A stretch of DNA of 64,000 nt from Haladaptatus cibarius D43. GTDB taxonomy: Archaea; Halobacteriota; Halobacteria; Halobacteriales; Haladaptataceae. Position 1 is the stretch's first letter. Every line of letters starts with the position of its first letter. The notes under the pieces were generated by a model. It had not been told where the DNA came from. It ran no database searches and saw nothing but the letters and a program-made list of their open reading frames with translations. Position numbers and translations under genes: made by a program. This document shows positions 2,293 through 41,880 of the stretch, piece by piece. The DNA lies in NCBI RefSeq assembly GCF_000710615.1, contig NZ_JDTH01000002.1:922082-986081 (forward strand), in the 5' to 3' direction.

Positions 2293-3051
2293 ATGAACGG
2301 GATAATCGACCACGTCATGATGCGGGTAGCGGATTTGGACGAAACGCTCGACTGGTACGGCGAACACCTCGATTATGAGGAGAAAGGTCGATGGGAGGCC
2401 GACACGTTCACCAACGTCTACCTCGGCCCGGAGGACGGTCACGACGACGGTGCCCTGCTGGAAATCACCTACAATCACGACGACCGAAGCTACGAGTTGG
2501 GCGACGCGTGGGGCCACATCGCAGTGCGCGTCGAGGACGTGTACGACGCCTACGAGGAACTGATGGATGCGGGCGTCGAAGATTACCGCGACCCCGATTC
2601 CTGTGGCGGACGCTACGCGTTCGTAAAAGACCCGGATGGACACGAAATCGAAATCGTCCAACGCGACCACGGCGCGCGCTGGAGTATCGACCACACCATG
2701 ATTCGCGTGGAGGATGCCGACGAAGCGCTCGGCTTCTGGACGCGAAAGTTCGAGTACGAACACACCGGCCGCTGGGAATCGGATTCGTTCGCCAACTACT
2801 TCATGAAGCCCGAAGACGCCGCCGAAGCGGCGATGGCGGTCGAACTTACGTACAACTACGACGGCCGAAGCTACGAGCTGGGCGACGCGTGGGGCCATCT
2901 CGCCGTGCGCGCGGACGACCTCCACGACGGATGGGAGACGCTGATGGAGCGCGAGGCAGAGGAGTACCGCGACCCCGAGTCCTGTGACGACCGTTACGCC
3001 TTCACCAAAGACCAAGACGGCCACGAAATCGAAGTTATCGAGCGCAACTGA
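2293..3051 (+). CDS. Tandem VOC (glyoxalase I-like) protein
   Basis: This 252-residue protein consists of two vicinal-oxygen-chelate modules in tandem, about residues 1-126 and 127-252. Each runs from IDH(V/T)MMRV or IRV through a (Y/F)ELGDAWGHIAVR/LAVR strand to a DPDGHEIEIV or DQDGHEIEVI metal-ligand motif. The two halves are similar over their length (RSYELGDAWGH occurs in both), which points to an internal duplication. The pattern matches lactoylglutathione lyase-type metalloenzymes, but haloarchaea lack glutathione, so the true substrate is uncertain. It is a single gene with its own upstream region. Confidence 0.88.
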   Translation: MNGIIDHVMMRVADLDETLDWYGEHLDYEEKGRWEADTFTNVYLGPEDGHDDGALLEITYNHDDRSYELGDAWGHIAVRVEDVYDAYEELMDAGVEDYRDPDSCGGRYAFVKDPDGHEIEIVQRDHGARWSIDHTMIRVEDADEALGFWTRKFEYEHTGRWESDSFANYFMKPEDAAEAAMAVELTYNYDGRSYELGDAWGHLAVRADDLHDGWETLMEREAEEYRDPESCDDRYAFTKDQDGHEIEVIERN

Positions 3052-32481: not shown

Positions 32482-32708
32482 TGCACAGATTGGGAGAAGT
32501 CGTTCGAACGGCACAGAACCTCGCCATCGTGCAATCGCCGAGCGAGGACTACCCGGATATCGGAACCATGGTCGTGGACGAAAGCCTCCAAACCGTCGGC
32601 AGAGTGGTTGACGTGTTCGGCCCGGTTTCACAACCCTACGTGGCGGTTTCGCCCGACGAGGACACGCGGCTTGCGATGTTGGTCGGGTCGAAACTGTACG
32701 CTCGATAA
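32481..32708 (+). CDS. gar1: H/ACA ribonucleoprotein component Gar1
   Basis: A 75-residue protein starting [20 protein letters not shown] and containing IGTMVVDESLQTVGRVVDVF and GPVSQPYVAVSPDED. This is the six-stranded beta-barrel core of archaeal Gar1, which binds Cbf5 in box H/ACA RNPs that make pseudouridine in rRNA. Length fits archaeal members, which lack the eukaryotic glycine/arginine tails. It is coupled to srp19 (TGATG). Confidence 0.93.
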   Translation: MHRLGEVVRTAQNLAIVQSPSEDYPDIGTMVVDESLQTVGRVVDVFGPVSQPYVAVSPDEDTRLAMLVGSKLYAR

Positions 32709-32765
32709 CTACGAAATGAGTTGAGAGTGGCTTTCCGACGGCTTTCGGCTGGTCAGCACATTCAT

Positions 32766-32899
32766 GTGGCGCGCGAAGGCGAACCTCCACTGGAGGTTCG
32801 CCCGCGTGAGGGACGACCGAACACCGACAGGTGCAAAGGAGTCGGTTGGGGAGGCGTGTGGACGGTTGCGGTGGCGGTTTGATTGGAGTCGGGACTTGT
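32766..32899 (+). repeat. Single arm of a dispersed structured repeat (copy A)
   Basis: Within the gene-free stretch 32709-33049, this arm starts with the inner box tggcgcgcg and carries a perfect 12-bp hairpin at 32778-32802 (ggcgaacctcca/tggaggttcgcc). It then has gtgagggacgac, gagtcggttggggagg, gttgcggtggcggtttgatt and ends ggagtcgggacttgtg. The same modules occur at 39125-39470 and 41174-41490. No second arm is found here, so this is a half element. No coding is evident. Confidence 0.75.
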
Positions 32900-33049
32900 G
32901 CTCTCCATTTTGAAACAAACTTCAGAATCTCATGGTGGATACCTCTCTAGTGGCGATTCTCTTAGAGTCGGTAGTAACTAGCAACTCCTCAAGATAAATC
33001 ACCGTGAGCGAAATCAAACAAACACAGTGCTACTAACGCTGTTGAGAAA

Positions 33050-33349
33050 TCACTCACTCCGAAGGACGATTCGTTCCAATCGACCAACCGTCTGTGCCTC
33101 GGGGTCGTCACTTCCCGCTTCGTCAGCACTCACTTCGACACGTTCGACAGGAGGATTTCGATATTCCGTGTAGACGTTCCAGTTGATTCCATCCTCCCGA
33201 ATCGTGAACTCCCGAACGTCGTCTTCGGGTCGCCACACGCGGGTTACGTCGCCCGTAACAGTCCCACCGCTTCCCGGCCCTTTCGGTGACCAGTCGAGTT
33301 CGATTTCCATCCCCTCCCGCAGGTCGTTCGGCGACAGTTCGTCGGTCAT
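33050..33349 (-). CDS. Small conserved hypothetical protein
   Basis: A 99-residue acidic protein read from ATG 33349 (MTDELSPNDLREGMEIELDW). A TTG start ten codons upstream would give MTEPQAVVDF as an added N-terminus. The middle part, GTVTGDVTRVWRPEDDVREF and TIREDGINWNVYTEY, looks like a small beta-barrel. No family is recognised and no metal-binding motif is visible. It follows the fen gene on the same strand after about 68 nt and may share its transcript. Confidence 0.6.
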   Translation of the reverse strand: MTDELSPNDLREGMEIELDWSPKGPGSGGTVTGDVTRVWRPEDDVREFTIREDGINWNVYTEYRNPPVERVEVSADEAGSDDPEAQTVGRLERIVLRSE

Positions 33350-33417
33350 GAAATCGACTACTGCCTGTGGTTCCGTCAACGTGACGGCCCCGGATGACCG
33401 CTAGCTGACTGTGACGA

Positions 33418-34398
33418 CTACGACCACTGGTCGAGGCCGGTCTGGGTGGTGCTCTCCTCGATTCGCTCGAACCCGCGCTCCACCTCGTCGGCGTGTACTT
33501 TCCACTCTTCGGTGACGTACTCGCGGGCGGCGTCGATGTCGGGGTTCATCTCGGCGTCGAACTCGTAATCGTCGGTAACCTCGGGATTGAGGAACATCTC
33601 GCGGATGGTATCCACGTTCGGGATGTCTTCGTCGCGTTTTTCGAGGACACCGAACAGGTCGCCGTGTTCTTTGACCCCTTTCAGCGCGGTTTTCGGGCCG
33701 ACGCCGGAGATGCCCTCGTTGAAGTCGGTGCCACAGAGGATGGCGATGTCCACCAACTGTTCCCACGTGATGTCGTGGTCTTCGAGCGTGGCGTCGAAGT
33801 CCATCAGTTCCGGGTCGCCCTTACTGGTGAGTTGCCGGAGGGTTTTGGGGGCACCGAGAAGCAGGGCATCGTAATCCTCGGTTCCGGCGTAATCGACCGC
33901 GCCGGTTCGGGCCATGTGCGCCGCCTGCGCTTCGCCCTCGAACGGAGCTTCGACGATCGGCACGTCCAAGTGTTCGAGCAGTTCGCGGGTGGTTTCCTGA
34001 ATGACCGGCGTGAGCCGCTGGGTGTGCGCGTCGAGACGGGCGACTTCGACGGCGTCGCCCGCCTCTCTCGCGTCTTCGAGTTGGTCTTCCAGTTTCTCTC
34101 GCTGTTCGCGCCGACTCTCGATTTCGTCGCTTTTGAGGTCGGTCACCTGCCCGTCGAAGACGAAGACGGGCGTCAAATCGTGCTCGAAGAATTTGGGCAG
34201 ACCTTGCACCACGCCGACGAGGTTGGCCACCTCGGTGCCGTCGTCGGTGGTGTACACCTCGTCGCGCGTCCACTTCACCGTCGTCGTGAGATACCGATAG
34301 AGCCAGTTGTGCGCGTCGATGGCGACGAGCGAGCCTTCGATGTCGTCGAAGCTAACCTCTTCGAGCGACGCGAGTTGTCGGAGTGCGGAGTTTCCCAT
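33418..34398 (-). CDS. fen: Flap endonuclease 1
   Basis: A 326-residue FEN1/Rad2 structure-specific nuclease. It starts MGNSALRQL, with the N-region acidic residues in [13 protein letters not shown] and PVFVFDG. The I-region metal ligands lie in [30 protein letters not shown] and [13 protein letters not shown], followed by the helix-hairpin-helix [12 protein letters not shown]. The C-terminal QTGLDQWS is a minimal PCNA-interacting motif. It removes 5' flaps during Okazaki fragment maturation and repair. The length is normal. Confidence 0.96.
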
Positions 34399-34511
34399 TT
34401 GCCGGGGCTAAGAGCGGCGTGGGCTTGAAACTCCCGTCTGACGGCGGAAGTGAGGGTGAAAATCCGCTGAACACCCAGAAACTACGAACCGTGCGGTCTG
34501 CCGAATCGAAG

Positions 34512-35549
34512 CTATTCGGAGGTCGTGGATGTCGTGGTGATTGTGGTTGTATCTTCTGTGGTGGTTGTCGTAGAATCGTCGCTCGTCGTGGTGGCTTCGT
34601 CAGTTGTCGTCGTGGTCGTTCCCCCGCTCGTTCCGTCGGTTGTCGTCGTTTCGTCCGAACCCTCGCCCGTCGGCGAACCGTCTTCCGTCGTGGTCGTAGT
34701 CGTCGTCTCGTCGGGTTCCGGCCCGCGTCCGAGCGCGGCGTCTAACTGCGCAATCGTCCGGTTCGGACGCGCCGTCGGTGCGGTCGCCTCGCCATCGACC
34801 ACGACGCGGGGGACAGCGGAAATCGGGACTTCGTACACCTTCTCCATCGTCTGTTCGATTTCCTGCTGGTATTTTCCGTCCTCGATTTCTGATTCGATTG
34901 CGTCGAGGTTTTCGACGCCCGCCGCTTCCGCGATTCGCATGAGCGTTTCCGTCGTCGCCCAGCCATCGACCCCGCTTCTGTTTTCGAACATGTATTCGAA
35001 GAAATCCCAGTAGGAGTCGGGGTCGTTGTGCCAAACTGCGAGTCCGGCCCGCGCCGCGCGCGGTTCGTCGGGGCCGTGGAATCCTTCGCCGTCCCTGTAG
35101 GCTACGGCACGAAATTCGAGAGCCACGTCGCCGGGTTCGACGTATTTTTGTACGATTTCGCCCAAAAACCCGAAGACGAACCGTTGCGTGTACGGACATT
35201 TCCACCCGCCGTAAACCGTCGCCGTGACGGGGGCATCCTCGGCACCCATCCGAGCGTAGGTGAATCCGCTCGGGTCGTTCGGAACGCTCGCCGATTCGTA
35301 GAGTCCCTCCGGCGATTCGATTTCCTCGGGTTCCGTCGATTCCTCGTCCGTTCCCGCTTCGTCCGTTGTCGATCCGTCGTCGAGATTCACATCGCTCGTC
35401 GTCGTCCCTCCGTCACTTCCTGACGTTCCGCTGGGGTCGGCTGTCTGCTCCGGATCCGAACTGTTGTTCGAGAGTGCTGAACAACCCGCCGCTCCAACCG
35501 ACAGTCCCGTGCCGACAAGGCCGAGTATCGTCCGCCGACTCGTCTTCAT
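34512..35549 (-). CDS. DsbA-family lipoprotein with a Thr-rich C-terminal tail
   Basis: A 345-residue protein. The N-terminus has a Tat motif and lipobox (SRRTILGLVGTGLSVGAAGC), so it is probably an exported lipoprotein. After an acidic linker, a thioredoxin-fold DsbA-like domain spans about residues 90-275: DAPVTATVYGGWKCPYTQRF, a helical insert with AARAGLAVWHNDPDSYWDFF, and the cis-proline strand ISAVPRVVVDG. The active site is CPYT, lacking the second cysteine of CxxC. The last 70 residues are a Thr/Asp/Gly-rich run. It may bind substrates or act as a monothiol; oxidase activity is doubtful. Confidence 0.85.
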   Translation of the reverse strand: MKTSRRTILGLVGTGLSVGAAGCSALSNNSSDPEQTADPSGTSGSDGGTTTSDVNLDDGSTTDEAGTDEESTEPEEIESPEGLYESASVPNDPSGFTYARMGAEDAPVTATVYGGWKCPYTQRFVFGFLGEIVQKYVEPGDVALEFRAVAYRDGEGFHGPDEPRAARAGLAVWHNDPDSYWDFFEYMFENRSGVDGWATTETLMRIAEAAGVENLDAIESEIEDGKYQQEIEQTMEKVYEVPISAVPRVVVDGEATAPTARPNRTIAQLDAALGRGPEPDETTTTTTTEDGSPTGEGSDETTTTDGTSGGTTTTTTDEATTTSDDSTTTTTEDTTTITTTSTTSE

Positions 35550-35636
35550 GGTTGTTCGTCTACCTAACAGGACTTCGTTAATCGGGTGTTAATGCGGACA
35601 ACAAACGGAACAAGTGGGAAGAGACGCTATTTTCGA

Positions 35637-36173
35637 TTACGAAGACGGCGGTTTCGACCCCTTCTTTTCGGCCAGAAACGACTCTTCGTCAGACGAAAGG
35701 TCGCGGTCACGAAACACGTCCAAGCCCGACTGATAGGTCGATTTCGACTGCTCCGCCGGGTGTTCCAACACGAGTTCGGCGATGCCGGTTTCTTCTTCCG
35801 TCCATCCGAAACCGGCGCGATAGAGCGCCTGATACGCGAACGGGTTGTTCACCGCGATTTTGACGCCCCGGTAACCCTTCTCGTGAATTTTTTTCGTGGT
35901 GAACCGGGCGAGTTCCGCCCCGATTCCTTCGCCGCGCCTGTCGGCGCGAACCGTCACGTACCGAAGCCACACGGTTTCGTCGTCGGTTCGGTCTTCGTTG
36001 AACGCGATGGCCGCGACGAGTTCGTCGTCCTGCCGGGCGACCGCCTTCCCGGAGTTCGACATCACGAACTTACCCGCGTAGCTGAACACCTCGTAATCGA
36101 GGCGGAGGGTCGGGCCGTCCTTGGGCCAGCCCAGTATCGTATTTTCCACACTGGAAGTTCGGACGCCAGTCAC
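35637..36173 (-). CDS. GNAT family N-acetyltransferase
   Basis: A 178-residue protein starting at GTG 36173. The acetyl-CoA-binding motif A is VTVRADRRGEGIGAELARF. The helix after it is TTKKIHEKGYRGVKIAVNNP, and the end of the fold is YQALYRAGFGWTEEETGIAEL. The substrate is unknown. It lies divergent from the small methyltransferase gene, with 68 nt between the starts. The C-terminal 25 residues are charged and probably disordered. Confidence 0.85.
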   Translation of the reverse strand: MTGVRTSSVENTILGWPKDGPTLRLDYEVFSYAGKFVMSNSGKAVARQDDELVAAIAFNEDRTDDETVWLRYVTVRADRRGEGIGAELARFTTKKIHEKGYRGVKIAVNNPFAYQALYRAGFGWTEEETGIAELVLEHPAEQSKSTYQSGLDVFRDRDLSSDEESFLAEKKGSKPPSS

Positions 36174-36241
36174 ATCCGTTCACTGGTGCCCGATGGATGT
36201 CGCCCCACGGATTTTACTCGCTGGCCCGCGTGTTCGATTCC

Positions 36242-36850
36242 ATGTCGAACACCGATTCCAATCCGTATTCGGCCGGTGATGTAGGACATTTCGACCGATT
36301 TGCCCGACTGTACGATTTCTTCTCGTCACCCTTCGACGCCGATATTCTCGCGGAGGGGCTGGCACAGGCAGACCGTCCAATCGAGCGCGTGGTTGACGTT
36401 GCCGGAGGAACCGGGCGCGCAGTGAGGGCAATCGACGCCGACGAGCGAATCGTTCTCGACGCGTCGAAGAAGATGCTCGTGCAGGCACACAGGCGAGGCC
36501 TCGCCTGTGTGCGCGGAGATGCCTCCCGACTGCCGCTCGATTCCGAATCGGTGGACGCCATCGTCATTTCGGATGCACTCCATCATATCGGCGATGCAGA
36601 GGACGCGCTCGCGGAGGTGGAGCGCGTGCTGAATCCCGGCGGCGTCCTCGTTATTCGGGAGTTCAACCCGGCGACGATTCGAGGCAAACTGCTCGTCCGA
36701 GGCGAACACGCAATCGGCATGAACTCCGTCTTCTTCACGCCGGAAGAACTCACTCGGATGCTCGCGGGCGCGGAACTCGTGCCGCACGTCCGGAATCGTG
36801 GATTCGACTACACCGTCGCGGGCGTCAAACGCACATCGGGAATCACATAA
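36242..36850 (+). CDS. Class I SAM-dependent methyltransferase
   Basis: A 202-residue protein starting MSNTDSNPYSAGDVGHFDRF. The SAM-binding motif I is VVDVAGGTGRAVRAI, motif II ERIVLDASKKML, and the later motif SVDAIVISDALHHIGDAEDA followed by ERVLNPGGVLVIREF matches the UbiE/COQ5-like group. It may methylate a quinone or lipid precursor, but this cannot be decided. The DUF3054 gene follows after 23 nt and may be co-transcribed. Confidence 0.85.
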   Translation: MSNTDSNPYSAGDVGHFDRFARLYDFFSSPFDADILAEGLAQADRPIERVVDVAGGTGRAVRAIDADERIVLDASKKMLVQAHRRGLACVRGDASRLPLDSESVDAIVISDALHHIGDAEDALAEVERVLNPGGVLVIREFNPATIRGKLLVRGEHAIGMNSVFFTPEELTRMLAGAELVPHVRNRGFDYTVAGVKRTSGIT

Positions 36851-36873
36851 CCTCGGCGTCCCGAGATGGCAGT

Positions 36874-37287
36874 ATGAGCAGTGTCTTTGCGACCGGGCGC
36901 TTCGACCGCTCCCCAGCCACCGCGGGACTTGTACTCGGCGATTTAGTAGTGATAATCGGACTCCTCTGGATGGGAAGCCTTCGACACAACACCGACCCGA
37001 TAACGAGTCCACTGTTGTTCGCGGATACGCTCGCGCCGTTTCTCATCGGGTGGGTCGTCGCCTCGCTCGTGCTCGGCACGTACAGCAGACGTGCACGTCG
37101 GTCGCTCCGCGACGCCGCGCTCCTCGGCGGCGGGGCATGGGTCGTCGCATCGCTCATTGGTGCAGGACTACGAGCGACCTCGTTGTTCCACGGTAACTCG
37201 CCGCTTTCGTTCGTCCTCGTCGTCACCGGACTCGGACTCGTTGCACTCGTCTGTTGGCGCGGACTCGCGGCAGCGATCACACCGTAA
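36874..37287 (+). CDS. DUF3054-like membrane protein
   Basis: A 137-residue protein with four predicted helices: about 17-36 (TAGLVLGDLVVIIGLLWMGS), 47-67 (FADTLAPFLIGWVVASLVLG), 80-100 and 108-130. The segment PFLIGWVV followed by LGTYS fits the DUF3054 family of small membrane proteins in actinobacteria and haloarchaea. Its function is unknown. It follows the methyltransferase gene closely. Confidence 0.8.
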   Translation: MSSVFATGRFDRSPATAGLVLGDLVVIIGLLWMGSLRHNTDPITSPLLFADTLAPFLIGWVVASLVLGTYSRRARRSLRDAALLGGGAWVVASLIGAGLRATSLFHGNSPLSFVLVVTGLGLVALVCWRGLAAAITP

Positions 37288-37751
37288 CCCGGCGATATTC
37301 GACGTATGAATGCACGGTGAGATAGATGGCAATGCCGACCGCCGGAACGATCATGCAGTATTTCGCGCAATCGGGGAAGGGTGCGCCGAGAACCGCGACT
37401 TCCGTTGTTATCGTTTGAACATCCTATACTGTCAATTTCACTTTAGTTTTATTCCTCGTAGTATTCGACTTCGCCGGATTACTCGTGGATATTTTCGGAA
37501 ACCGATTCCGTCGCCGATTTCCATGCTAGATAATAACACCCATTTCGAGGAAGAATAATTCTGAGTCATATTCGATTCACTCGAAAAGTGCCGAATTTCT
37601 CCGTTTTGAGGTCTGTATTTCTCATGGATTCTCATAACTTATCTCAAAGTAACTCGTCAATGCGGTTGTGAATACGGAGTAGGTACACAGAACGACTGTC
37701 TCTCATATGGGGAAGAGTTATATACCCTCCCCGCATATTCTATAATAGATT
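37288..37751. other. 464-nt A/T-rich intergenic region with a promoter
   Basis: No convincing gene is seen here: the open frames have neither sensible composition nor a good start. The DNA is markedly A/T-richer than the flanks. Near its right end, ttatata at 37718-37724 lies about 30 nt before ATG 37752 and is a good TATA box for the next gene. Confidence 0.6.
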
Positions 37752-37967
37752 ATGACTGGATACTATGACCTCATTCTGGGACTGATTCCGCTTGCACTGG
37801 TTGGCGTAACTGGAGTACTCAGCGTTGCTGGACTCGCGCTGACGACCGCGATTCCGCTCGGCGCAACCGCTTCCGTGTTCCTCATCGGCCACGCCCTGTT
37901 CGTCAATGGGCCTGTCGATGACGTTCCTGCCGCCCAGTCTCCTCCACCAGTCAACTCCGCTGACTAA
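37752..37967 (+). CDS. Small two-helix membrane protein
   Basis: A 71-residue protein MTGYYDLILGLIPLALVGVT with two hydrophobic segments (about 6-28 and 33-52, LALTTAIPLGATASVFLIGH) and a short acidic, proline-rich tail. It resembles a small protein found widely in haloarchaea, from memory only, with no assigned function. A strong TATA box about 30 nt upstream and an ATG directly at the predicted transcript start fit a leaderless mRNA. Confidence 0.7.
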   Translation: MTGYYDLILGLIPLALVGVTGVLSVAGLALTTAIPLGATASVFLIGHALFVNGPVDDVPAAQSPPPVNSAD

Positions 37968-38038
37968 CTGTTTCCTTTCTTTCCCCTTTCCGTTCTCCTT
38001 CCTCAACGGTTTTGTCGCTGGCAGTTCTCTTGCCAGCC

Positions 38039-39037
38039 ATGACAGATGCACTGTTTCTTTCGAGCGACGAGGTTGCCGGACTGGCAACACCGGACGAATA
38101 CGTCGATGCCGTCCACGAGGGCTACTACCAGCGAGGATTGGGTGCGCCCGCAAAACCGCGCACCACGCTCCCGAACGCCGACCCCGCGGGGATGCTGACG
38201 AGTTACTCCGCAATGCTACCCGAAACCGGAGCGATGGGTGGCTACATGTACTCCGCCGGATTCGGCGCGGAGGACGCGTGGTTCATGACGCCGCTGTTCG
38301 ACGCCGAAAGCGGTGAACCACTCGCGCTCATCGACGGTGCGAGCATGAATCCGTTCAAAACCGGCGCGGTGGGCGCGGTCGGCGTGGACGCACTCGCCCG
38401 AGAAAATGCAACGAAACTCGGCCTCATCGGAAGCGGCGCACAGGCCCGCGGCCAGTTGAAAGCGGCGATGACCGTGCGCGACATCGAAACCGTCGCCGTC
38501 TACTCGCCGACCAAGGAAAGCAGGGAATCGTTCGCTGGCGAAATGAACGAAACCCTCGACGCCTCCGTCGCGGCCGTCGCCAGCAGCGCCGCCGCGGTCG
38601 AGAACGCGGACATCGTGATTACGGCGACCACCGCCAGCGAACCGGTTTTCGACGGCGACCTGTTGGAGGATGGCACCCACGTCACCGCGATGGGGCAGTA
38701 CCATCCGAAAAAGCGCGAACTCGACGCGACCACCATCGAGCGCGCGAAATACGTCCCCGACCTGCGCGAGCGAGCGACGCAGGACGCCGGGTCGTTCCTC
38801 GCCGCGCTGGACTCGGGTGCCGTGAGCGAAGACCACATCCACGCGGAACTCGGCGAGGTGGTTGCGGGTGATGCAGTCGGACGGGAATCCGAGGACGAAA
38901 TCACCGTCTTCGACAGCGGCGGAACTGGGATTGAAACCGTGGCGTCGGCGTATATGCTGTACGAGAAAGCGCTGGACGAGGGACTTGGCTCCACGATTTC
39001 CCTCTCGCCTGCGAGTGACGCGTTGACCGGCGAATAG
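38039..39037 (+). CDS. Ornithine cyclodeaminase/mu-crystallin family protein
   Basis: A 332-residue NAD(P)-dependent enzyme. The substrate side shows AMLPETGAMGGYMYSAGFGA and GASMNPFKTGAVGAVGVDAL. The dinucleotide-binding Rossmann motif is KLGLIGSGAQARGQLKAAM, followed by TVAVYSPTKES and the conserved DIVITATTASEPVFDGDLL. Members act as ornithine cyclodeaminases, archaeal alanine dehydrogenases or ketimine reductases, and the exact reaction cannot be told here. The ATG at 38039 is preferred over an upstream TTG. The gene is monocistronic; a repeat element begins 88 nt after it. Confidence 0.87.
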   Translation: MTDALFLSSDEVAGLATPDEYVDAVHEGYYQRGLGAPAKPRTTLPNADPAGMLTSYSAMLPETGAMGGYMYSAGFGAEDAWFMTPLFDAESGEPLALIDGASMNPFKTGAVGAVGVDALARENATKLGLIGSGAQARGQLKAAMTVRDIETVAVYSPTKESRESFAGEMNETLDASVAAVASSAAAVENADIVITATTASEPVFDGDLLEDGTHVTAMGQYHPKKRELDATTIERAKYVPDLRERATQDAGSFLAALDSGAVSEDHIHAELGEVVAGDAVGRESEDEITVFDSGGTGIETVASAYMLYEKALDEGLGSTISLSPASDALTGE

Positions 39038-39124
39038 CGATTTGGAAGAGTTGGTTGGGAATGCGATTTGGAGGGGTTTTGAGAGGATGTGTTGCTTTTG
39101 GATGGTTGTAGAATTGCTGGTAGG

Positions 39125-39470
39125 TAATCACGACAATAAATACCGCAACCGCCACCGTGGGCCACGTCCTCCCCAACCGATTCCTTCGTCACTTCGTTCC
39201 TCACTCATCCCTCGCACGCTTTAGCGCGATTTCTCGGACGTACAGTCCTCGAACTCACGCCAGCGCGCGCCACATGGAAAAGATGGTTTCCGGAAATCGA
39301 CCCAACCACAGTGGCGCGTGCGTCAGCAGACCTGAGGCGTTCACCGCCGAGGGTCTGCTAATTTCCGCGCGAGGGATGAGTGAACGAGCGTTAGCGAGTG
39401 AGCGAATCGGTTGGGGAGGTGTGTGGGTGGTTGCGGTGCGGGGGCGGTTTGATTGGAGTCGTGATTTGCT
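39125..39470. repeat. Two-armed palindromic structured repeat (copy B)
   Basis: This 346-nt element has two inward-facing arms around a unique 37-nt centre (39274-39310). The left arm begins with the subtype-beta end (taatcacgacaataaatacc) and contains cctccccaaccgatt and ctcatccctcgc. The right arm runs tggcgcgtgcg, a hairpin at 39325-39359, gcgagggatgagtgaacg, gaatcggttggggagg, and ends with the alpha end cggtttgattggagtcgtga plus tttgcta. Its modules match copies A and C. No protein-coding signal is convincing. It occupies part of the gene-free stretch 39038-39704. Confidence 0.8.
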
Positions 39471-39515
39471 ACCGACAAACTACCTTCGTTCGAATCGCGT
39501 ACTGCTAGTTCGTCG

Positions 39516-39552
39516 TCGTGGCGGTTTGATTGGAGTCGTGACTTGCTATCGG
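39516..39552 (+). repeat. Extra copy of the alpha repeat terminus
   Basis: The sequence gtggcggtttgattggagtc followed by gtgacttgctatcgg repeats the right end of copy B (39442-39475) almost exactly, 73 nt further on, without the rest of the arm. It looks like an end fragment left by an imperfect duplication or excision. The rest of 39553-39704 shows no gene. Confidence 0.7.
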
Positions 39553-39704
39553 CAATTTCACAACTCGGTCAATAGCTCGTTCAACTTATTCATAAACTCG
39601 CCAAACGCCGAAAAAGCAAATCCATCTGAAAAACCAAACCATCTCGCTCCCTCCAAAATGTCGAACCCAAAACCACAAAGAGGGGTCACTTCATTGCTTC
39701 GGCC

Positions 39705-40751
39705 ATGAACAAACGAACGCGGGTGCTCTTTGCATCCGGGTTGACCGTCGCCATCTTCCTCGGGGTACAACTCGGGGCGCTGGCGCTGGTCGAACCGTTC
39801 GAATCTGCGGGCTATCAGACGGTCGAAGACCCCTCCGACCCGACCAACAGTCTCGTCTACGTCGGCGTCATCCTCGTCTTCACGGCGGGGATGCTCGCCA
39901 TCATGAAACTCGGCGTCGAATGGATTCTCCGCGGCGTCATCATCTTCACGAGCGGAATGCTCTCGCTGTACGTCTTCAGCGTCATCATTCCCTCCGCGGT
40001 CGAGATAACGGTCGGCGGCGCGCCGGTCAACGTCGTCGCGTGGGGAGCCGCCGCAGTGGTCGCCATCGCCCTTGCAGTCCACCCCGAATGGTACGTCATC
40101 GACTCCGCAGGGGTCGTCATGGGCGCGGGTGCGGCGGGCCTGTTCGGCATCAGTTTCGGCCTGCTCCCGGCAATCCTCCTCCTCGCGGTGCTGGCCATCT
40201 ACGACGCCATCAGCGTCTACGGAACAGAACACATGCTCACGCTCGCCTCCGGCGTGATGGACTTGAAAATCCCCGTTGTCCTCGTGATTCCGATGTCGCT
40301 CTCGTACTCGTTCATCGCGGACACCGCACAGGCGACCAGCGAAGGCGCGGTGTCGCCGGAGGACGAACCGGACGAATCGGTCGAAGCGGACGAAGTCGAT
40401 TCTCCGGAAACGGACGAATCAGAGGCCGATTCGGACACGGGCGACCGCGACGCCCTCTTCATCGGACTGGGCGACGCCGTCATGCCGACCATCCTCGTTG
40501 CCAGCGCGGCGTTCTTCTCGCCCGCGGACGCCCTCGTCTCGGGATTCGCCCTCAATCTACCCGCGCTGACGGCCATGATTGGCACGATGATCGGATTGGT
40601 CACCCTGCTCTGGTTGGTGCTCAAAGGGCGCGCACACGCCGGACTGCCGCTGCTCAACGGCGGTGCAATCGGCGGCTACCTCGTCGGCGCGCTGGCCAGC
40701 GGAATTTCCCTCTCGCAGGCGCTCGGTTTGGGCGGCCTGACGCTTGCGTAA
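39705..40751 (+). CDS. Presenilin/signal-peptide-peptidase-like intramembrane aspartyl protease
   Basis: A 348-residue protein with nine predicted helices. The catalytic aspartates lie in the two conserved membrane motifs, IYDAISVYGTEHM (D167) and FIGLGDAVMPTILV (D257), and the PAL-like motif appears as AGLPLLNGG. Between them is an acidic cytoplasmic loop of about 55 residues (EDEPDESVEADEVDSPETDE). This is the archaeal PSH family, which cleaves peptides within the membrane. Natural substrates are unknown. The gene and its downstream neighbour lie between two structured repeats in opposite orientation. Confidence 0.93.
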   Translation: MNKRTRVLFASGLTVAIFLGVQLGALALVEPFESAGYQTVEDPSDPTNSLVYVGVILVFTAGMLAIMKLGVEWILRGVIIFTSGMLSLYVFSVIIPSAVEITVGGAPVNVVAWGAAAVVAIALAVHPEWYVIDSAGVVMGAGAAGLFGISFGLLPAILLLAVLAIYDAISVYGTEHMLTLASGVMDLKIPVVLVIPMSLSYSFIADTAQATSEGAVSPEDEPDESVEADEVDSPETDESEADSDTGDRDALFIGLGDAVMPTILVASAAFFSPADALVSGFALNLPALTAMIGTMIGLVTLLWLVLKGRAHAGLPLLNGGAIGGYLVGALASGISLSQALGLGGLTLA

Positions 40752-40793
40752 TCAGCCAGAACGCTCTAACACTTCGCCTGAGTAGGCCGACGC

Positions 40794-41057
40794 ATGCCCG
40801 ACCCGGACGTTGGCACGGCGACAATCGTGTACGAAGACGCGGACGGCGTAACCGAGCGAGAAGTCGAAAACGACGACATCGTCTACTTCGACGACCACTG
40901 GCTCGTCAAAGTCGGCGAAAATGACGACGGCGACGATGTCGTCCGTCGGATTCCCCGCGAGCGTGTCCAGTACGTCGAACGCTCCATCGACGAACTCGAA
41001 AAAAAAGTCGAGGGAGCGATTGAGCAAGCCAAAGAGCAGTTCGGCTGGTGGGGCTAG
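40794..41057 (+). CDS. Small acidic haloarchaeal protein
   Basis: An 87-residue protein starting MPDPDVGTATIVYEDADGVT. It has a beta-rich first half (IVYFDDHWLVKVG) and a C-terminal helix with charged heptads (ERSIDELEKKVEGAIEQAKE) ending FGWWG. No family is assigned with confidence. It follows the presenilin-like gene after 42 nt on the same strand and may be its operon partner, as the next upstream gene is far away. A conserved pairing with the protease would be informative. Confidence 0.7.
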   Translation: MPDPDVGTATIVYEDADGVTEREVENDDIVYFDDHWLVKVGENDDGDDVVRRIPRERVQYVERSIDELEKKVEGAIEQAKEQFGWWG

Positions 41058-41173
41058 GAAGTAGTACAAGAAGTGGATTTTGGGAAGTTCGATTTCGTTC
41101 TTTTTTTGCCAGCTGTTGCTGATCCGGTTGGATGATGAACTACACGTCGCGGCGTCAGCGGAATGAACTTCTT

Positions 41174-41490
41174 TAAGCAAATCACGACTCCAATCAAACC
41201 GCACCACATCCTCCCCAACCGACTGCGTTTCTCGGTCGCTCCTTCGTCGCTCTCTGCGATACTCACCCTCGCGCGGGCGACTACCGTCGCCTTCGCGCGC
41301 CAGATTGTCTGTTTCGATTCATGAAATTCCACAAAGCTAGTGGCGCGCGCGTCGGCAGGGCCGAGGAATCTTCGGCCCTGCCGATTACTGCGCGAGGGGC
41401 GACTGAGCGAACGGAGTGAGCGAAGGAGTCGGTTGAGGAGGAACGTGGCTTGCGGTGGCGGTTGCGGTATTTGTTGTCGTGATTTGCTAT
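41174..41490. repeat. Two-armed palindromic structured repeat (copy C), inverted relative to copy B
   Basis: A 317-nt element. The left arm starts with the alpha end (agcaaatcacgactccaatc then aaaccgc), has cctccccaaccgact, and a 6-bp hairpin ggcgac/gtcgcc (41276-41291) next to the inner box gcgcgcca. A unique 37-nt centre lies at 41304-41340. The right arm begins tggcgcgcgcg, carries a 13-bp hairpin at 41352-41384, gcgaggggcgactgagcg, gagtcggttgaggagg and the beta end cggtatttgttgtcgtgatt. The end types are swapped compared with copy B. The surrounding gene-free stretch is 41058-41634. Confidence 0.8.
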
Positions 41491-41634
41491 CAGCATACTC
41501 GAGAAAACAATGTCAACTACCGAGATAGATAGAAAAGAACGATGATAAGAACGCTCTGTAAAAACCGTCTTCAGACACTGTTCCCCCACGTAGTCTCCTT
41601 CGACTTTTTATCCCTGCGCGCAAAACCACCTGCC

Positions 41635-41880
41635 ATGAACGCGGACGATGTTGCGGAACTCATCGAATCGGAACTCGAAGACGCTGACGTGACGGTCACC
41701 CACCCGCGCGGGGAACACGACGAAGACCACCTCGCGGCCCTCGTGATTTCTCCTGCCTTTGAAGGGAAATCGCTGGTACAACAGCACCAACTGGTGTACG
41801 ACGCGCTGGGCGACCACATGACGACGGACATCCACGCGCTCGAACTGAAAACGTACACGCCCGAAGCGTACGAGGGGTAA
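41635..41880 (+). CDS. BolA family protein
   Basis: An 81-residue protein MNADDVAELIESELEDADVT with the BolA signature in HLAALVISPAFEGKSLVQQH and QLVYDALGDHMTTDIHALEL. The family fold is a class II KH-like domain, which in other organisms binds monothiol glutaredoxins and Fe-S clusters. The equivalent of the metal-binding histidine is present in IHALEL. It precedes fumarase by 74 nt on the same strand. The ATG at 41635 matches the family start. Confidence 0.88.
   Translation: MNADDVAELIESELEDADVTVTHPRGEHDEDHLAALVISPAFEGKSLVQQHQLVYDALGDHMTTDIHALELKTYTPEAYEG

Follow-up and report, generated by a model that had tools for sequence, protein, structure and literature searches.

The stretch of DNA analysed here (the window) spans 64,000 nucleotides of the genome of Haladaptatus cibarius D43, and it harbours three members of a dispersed family of palindromic repeats. 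The unit of repetition is a single arm, about 135-215 nt long. It comprises, from the centre of the element outward, a GGCGCG box (GGCGCGYG), a first hairpin (H1), the motif GCGAGGG, a second hairpin (H2), a core reading TCGGTTGGGGAGG, a GC-rich stretch and finally a tail, the conservation of which fades some 20 nt from where GTCGTG begins. Elements B and C are complete, with one arm on each side of a centre, and element A is a lone arm (Table 1). The original prediction had proposed this very arrangement, two full elements and a single arm sharing ordered modules, and all modules were recovered in place. Sequence resembling the extra tail copy that trails element B also follows other copies in the genome. 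The H. litoreus orthologue of element A is also a single arm, with an identical H1 stem and an H2 that is both different and longer; the H1 sequence of the left arm of element B has been retained in H. litoreus as well as in H. pallidirubidus; the H2 of the left arm of element C has been lost in its H. litoreus orthologue. Elsewhere in the window, a direct repeat of 207 nt (2461-2667 and 2842-3048, 75% identical) is unrelated to the palindromic elements.

Table 1. Parts of the three palindromic elements in the window (positions counted from its first nucleotide; (-) marks the minus strand).
Feature	Position	Strand
Element A, single arm: type-a (short) H1, H2, core, tail	32766..32899	+
Element B, left arm: type-c H1 39209-39272, core 39168-39181, tail 39125-39167	39125..39272	-
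Element B, centre, 39 nt, a diverged copy of the polar centre consensus	39273..39311	
Element B, right arm: type-b H1 39312-39375, H2 39372-39408, core 39406-39419, tail to 39470 (weak conservation about 7-8 nt beyond)	39312..39470	+
Extra tail copy 3' of element B; GGCGGTTTGATTGGAGTCGTGACTTGCTATCGGCA at 39521-39555	39486..39555	+
Element C, left arm: type-a H1 41266-41302, core 41210-41223, tail from 41174	41174..41302	-
Element C, centre, 38 nt	41303..41340	
Element C, right arm: type-b H1 41341-41398, H2 41395-41430, core 41428-41441, tail to about 41490	41341..41490	+
TGGCGCGNG boxes	32767, 39264(-), 39312, 41294(-), 41341	
GTCGGTTGGGGAGG cores (at most 2 mismatches)	32841, 39168(-), 39406, 41210(-), 41428	
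GTCGTGANTTGCT ends (extra tail copy at 39535, absent from the original prediction)	39458, 41176(-), 41476, 39535	

Three types of H1 can be told apart: a short one, type a (GGCGCGCGAAGGCGA...TCGCCCGCGCGAGG), and two others that start with GGCGCGTGCGTCGGCA (type b) and GGCGCGCGCTGGC (type c). In types b and c a 2x2 G.A internal loop mostly separates an outer from an inner stem. It had been noticed that the three right-hand hairpins of the window differ in sequence while each of them pairs, the left arm of element B being weaker, and this is correct. The difference is real, but it does not reflect drift alone, as the hairpin of element A is of type a, and those of elements B and C of type b. H2 is a helix of 2-bp Watson-Crick steps with tandem mismatches between them. 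Over 78 well-parsed distinct sequences, the half-sites of these mismatches read 5'-GA-3' in 340 cases out of 340; the pairing score credits G.A in either order, so that it is the constancy of this order which is informative. The loops that close the same 78 helices are GNA (39), GNYA (19), GNAB (7) and GNRA (2), with 11 of other kinds. Motifs of this sort are known to be exceptionally stable in DNA: GNA is a minihairpin loop of DNA in which the closing pair is a sheared G.A (PMC6479982), and d(cGNNAg) and d(cGNABg) are stable DNA tetraloops obtained by in vitro selection, according to the work of Nakano et al. (2002) as cited in PMC2984261.

Covariation had been singled out beforehand as the check to which the structural claim should be put, and it is present in both hairpins. 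For H1 (30 sequences, ungapped), 95.6% of the cells are paired, against 81.2 after shuffling, and the covariation amounts to 0.499, against 0.219 in shuffled sequences and no more than 0.126 once the partners have been slid; 84 cells have changed on both sides, with 25.6 in the shuffled set. H2 (28 sequences) behaves in the same way, with 92.5% of paired cells against 78.1, a covariation of 0.541 against 0.264 shuffled and at most 0.129 slid, and 41 cells changed on both sides against 11.9. Because kinship alone can beat shuffles, it is the slid control, the changes on both sides and the order of the G.A mismatches that carry weight here. Furthermore, G.T is far more frequent than A.C in the stems (37:10 in H1, 19:5 in H2), which shows that the folded form is that of one strand, the one leading outward from the centre.

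In the complete elements of the genome, two outward-facing arms surround a centre that is mostly 38-41 nt long. The original prediction held the centres to be unrelated. Those of elements B and C are unlike as a pair, yet 28 copies yield a common, polar consensus, taTgG.AaA.Tcgg..TTC..GAATcgaCACAAACcC.g, with an information content of 26.4 bits where 40 shuffles reach at most 10.7, and the claim has to be abandoned. The arms that face one another across this centre differ in type. Reading of the 31 complete elements that could be classified gave 13 a/b, 15 b/c and 3 a/c combinations, and none with two arms of the same type, an outcome the chance of which, with random pairing, is near 1e-6 by simple arithmetic. 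This count of 31 out of 31 is manual, the automated arm classifier leaving many copies unclassified; in the stricter subset that the latter retains, 16 elements of 16 are heterotypic (P ~7e-4). The H1 arms of one element are also less alike than random pairs are (1 of 300 shuffles). Such a preference for arms of different types would be accounted for if long perfect palindromes are avoided.

The elements are inherited vertically. Nearly all the loci retrieved from H. litoreus and H. pallidirubidus are located at sites that are occupied in H. cibarius too, between flanks that are 80-95% identical, while the interior turns over. Whole hairpins have been replaced between orthologous copies, as for example both H1s at C2:820k. 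In other cases the inner segment has been inverted, with tails and flanks remaining in place: alignment with H. litoreus displays this at C5:80.6k, C2:1177k and C1:906k, and scores indicate it at C2:17.6k (against H. litoreus) and C2:1510k (against H. pallidirubidus). Inversion breakpoints are found close to the core, itself present as an inverted repeat within each element, and recombination or replication template switching at the core is the likely route of inversion. Replacement and inversion imply that some of the pairing is kept by a swap to another ready-made hairpin. Thus, the view that structure is kept while sequence changes stands, but not in the form of simple compensated drift, in the face of three H1 types, whole-hairpin replacement and inner inversions. 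Counts made over orthologous pairs, some mismatched arms included, point in the same direction: 85 changes affect one side and leave no standard pair, beside 69 that affect both sides and still pair, so that compensation is not the sole process. Taken to its limit, this would mean that the pairing is kept by mutation, with template switching and gene conversion rewriting one strand of a stem or copying whole hairpins. The frequent exchange of entire orthologous hairpins, and one-sided unpaired changes as common as two-sided paired ones, would fit. We nevertheless find this improbable, as it leaves unexplained the strict 5'-GA-3' order, the loop classes, the excess of G.T over A.C and the heterotypic arms.

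That the family is dispersed, as originally proposed, is not due to chance: elements B and C yield 98 and 75 BLAST matches (E <= 0.001) in the genome of H. cibarius, and a profile built from the five window arms finds 81 arm matches in 41 segments. Model searches, together with the stretches retrieved, place the total at about 100 arms (85 matches to the H1 model, 104 to the H2/core model), and some 67 intergenic groups are seen among the retrieved stretches. Beyond this genome, matches to the H2/core model occur in 177 of the 292 Halobacteria genomes, from 46 of 77 genera, and the hosts include Natrinema, Natronorubrum, Halosimplex, Halococcus, Halogranum and Halorussus. About 40% of the sampled Halobacteria genomes have no H2/core match at the cut-off, and in a phylum-wide sample of 148 genomes the 13 that match are all haloarchaeal, with none among the non-haloarchaeal genomes. 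Among the matches read, those outside Haladaptatus are mostly solo arms, whereas in Haladaptatus the arms often come in inverted pairs. A few haloarchaeal plasmids carry arms. A phage origin was considered and discarded, as no phage record matches them. Within Haladaptatus, the genomes hold 104, 92, 71, 47, 43, 29, 14, 8 and 2 arms, a spread that could reveal the gene responsible. Could these arms be sites with a function for the host, landmarks of nucleoid organization, topology, replication or repair, bound by a protein and fixed by selection, mobility being unnecessary? Orthologous placement with a changing interior would agree with this, and so would a TCGGTTGGGGAGG core and an H2 that are recognizable across the class. 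However, congeners live with 2-14 arms where H. cibarius has about 100, and the share of Halobacteria genomes with none at the cut-off tells us that such sites are not essential; we see this explanation as somewhat unlikely.

Nearly all copies are intergenic. With gene calls that come from our own codon-usage script and not from annotation, the copies of H. cibarius are found in 31 tandem, 21 divergent and 12 convergent gaps, and the 95 solo arms of other genera in 44 tandem, 17 divergent and 34 convergent ones. A role as terminator was rejected, since divergent gaps are not depleted among the H. cibarius copies. The orientation of the arms with respect to genes is random: in tandem gaps, 21 solo arms are sense and 23 antisense, which argues against a cis role in mRNA and against an mRNA 3'-end structure.

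This bears directly on whether the arms work as RNA, each being transcribed to make a 3' UTR structure, a processing site, a terminator or an sRNA. Folding energies lend themselves to this proposal. As RNA, the three right-hand arms of the window fold 3.1 to 4.4 sd below shuffles. With the RNA parameters of ViennaRNA, the outward strand adopts the drawn structure, with its tandem G.A mismatches, and the complement of H2 folds poorly; consensus H2 alone reaches -6.7 (z -2.4) with these parameters and has no stable fold (0 kcal/mol) with those for DNA, a result which, as computed, favours RNA, knowing that the DNA set may lack terms for loops of the H2 type. Stems that tolerate G.U and are poor in A.C suit RNA as well, there is a modest excess of solo arms in convergent gaps, and hairpins occur upstream of some Haloferax termination sites (PMC7237163). 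Besides the missing sense bias, the copies lodged between divergent genes speak against RNA; the pairing of arms in inverted orientation means that a single transcript would hold the GA form of one arm only; the tetraloops are GNYA and GNAB, with hardly any GNRA; and Rfam has no match for positions 32500-41700 of the window up to E = 1. A structured RNA thus appears unlikely. Single-stranded DNA is to be placed ahead of RNA, not decisively, because of the loop classes, the absence of a gene-orientation bias and the inverted pairing of the arms, with the ViennaRNA DNA parameters standing on the other side.

As for the way in which the family may have spread, one could think of the remnants of ordinary MITEs, PATEs or SMRs, mobilized by a known transposase. 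Such elements are common in Haloquadratum (PMC3119063), and both a copy number that goes from 104 to 2 within a genus and a nested hairpin unit found at differing places among copies would be in line with this origin. Yet a search for Y1 transposases (PF01797) retrieved no candidate in H. cibarius, with positive controls in five genomes, and the enzyme is absent from congeners with 47, 29 and 8 arms while present in those with 2 and 14. We rejected Y1 as the mobilizer in H. cibarius, where it is undetectable, its presence not tracking copy number. A larger autonomous version was sought among wider arm pairs and none was consistent, as the outward pairs cluster at 150-300 nt. The congener copies retrieved sit at orthologous sites, and the copies examined display no evident target-site duplication. 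At the site of element B, genome G008 has a gap of 187 nt devoid of the element, with a possible tail remnant, which fits insertion or loss. This origin is, in our opinion, highly doubtful.

The expectation that no catalogued family would match has been borne out in Rfam and in the open literature, where we found no named family or described haloarchaeal REP/BIME counterpart, although such an absence is no proof of novelty. The hairpin-arm family is described neither with the elements of Haloquadratum (PMC3119063), nor with REPINs (PMC3116915), nor in a survey of Y1 enzymes where the IS200-like subclass is the only one present in archaea (PMC6006769), nor in a survey of REPs in bacteria and archaea, where no Halo- or Natri- organism appears in the main text (PMC12306157). 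We place it among the interspersed mosaic palindromic elements of the BIME/REPIN kind, as a variant that is new and archaeal. Like these, it is intergenic and of high copy number, is built from palindromic units that occur singly or as inverted pairs, assembles hairpin modules into mosaics and varies in number among relatives. It differs in its arms of 135-215 nt with two hairpins, where REP units have about 20-40 nt, in its tandem G.A helices, H1-heterotypic arms and polar centre, in being archaeal and, in comparison with REPINs, in that no RAYT-type Y1 transposase was detected in H. cibarius. The PATEs of Haloquadratum are also haloarchaeal and non-coding, with palindromes near their termini, but they have IS605-type ends and no terminal inverted repeats (PMC3119063), unlike the long inverted arms and shared tail seen here, in a genome without Y1. 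SMR-A elements, also from Haloquadratum, are likewise non-coding with inverted ends, and their insertion into palindromes recalls the nested hairpin unit described below; they are about 110 nt long, usually exceed 95% identity within a type and are located in PATE/IS605 palindromes (PMC3119063), whereas the paired elements described here measure 320-460 nt and are highly diverged. Finally, the telomere palindromes of Streptomyces form conserved single-stranded DNA hairpins with GCA loops and sheared G.A closure (PMC4513846). They belong to chromosome ends, while our arms are internal, dispersed, arranged in inverted pairs and archaeal: this is resemblance, not membership.

We lean towards the view that these are old, non-coding, intergenic mosaic palindromic repeats of haloarchaea, which act and fold as hairpins of single-stranded DNA. 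No mobilizing protein, clean empty site or target-site duplication came to light, which weighs against this view, and sites conserved between species could instead reflect a function for the host. The arms would be exposed as single strands during replication or repair, where H1 and H2 could fold with tandem sheared G.A pairs and GNA, GNNA or GNAB loops. As it is the outward strand of each arm that would fold, each DNA strand would carry one folded arm. A factor, encoded by the host or by the element, may then read the hairpins and the core, and copy or protect the element. H1 types that differ would let each arm fold upon itself without making a long perfect palindrome that the replication or repair machinery would remove. 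To go further and postulate a class-wide archaeal system of single-stranded DNA repeats, with invertible heterotypic arms and a haloarchaeal protein that reads tandem-G.A hairpins and the core, without bacterial counterpart, is to our mind rather unlikely to prove right. About 60% of the sampled Halobacteria genomes carry the family, and tandem-G.A helices with DNA-type loops, present in so many divergent natural sequences, would make a test set for the folding of single-stranded DNA in vivo at high salt. With conserved sites the interiors of which flip and swap hairpins, the upkeep of long palindromes in archaea becomes directly testable.

Other modules are intermingled with the arms. A nested unit of about 60 nt, made of two hairpins (CGAACGAGATTTC...GAAATCTCG...GCGAGCGG...CCGCGAGC), varies in position between elements: in H. 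cibarius it is inside H1 at C6:220571, C2:312452 and C2:1177888, and in tails at C2:17646, C1:840390, C2:39778 and C2:575269, the H. litoreus orthologue of the last being without it. At C2:312145 and in the H. pallidirubidus orthologue of element B, an arm is cut short by yet another hairpin module, CTTGCAAGACGC...GCGTCTTGCTGACCTGC..CCGTGGCCCGC. A fourth partner module, GTGCGCCAGCGCG...CCCGCGCTGGCGGGGAGGAGTGGGGA, takes the place of one arm at C2:604548, C2:71038, C1:920957, C6:220734 and other H. cibarius loci.
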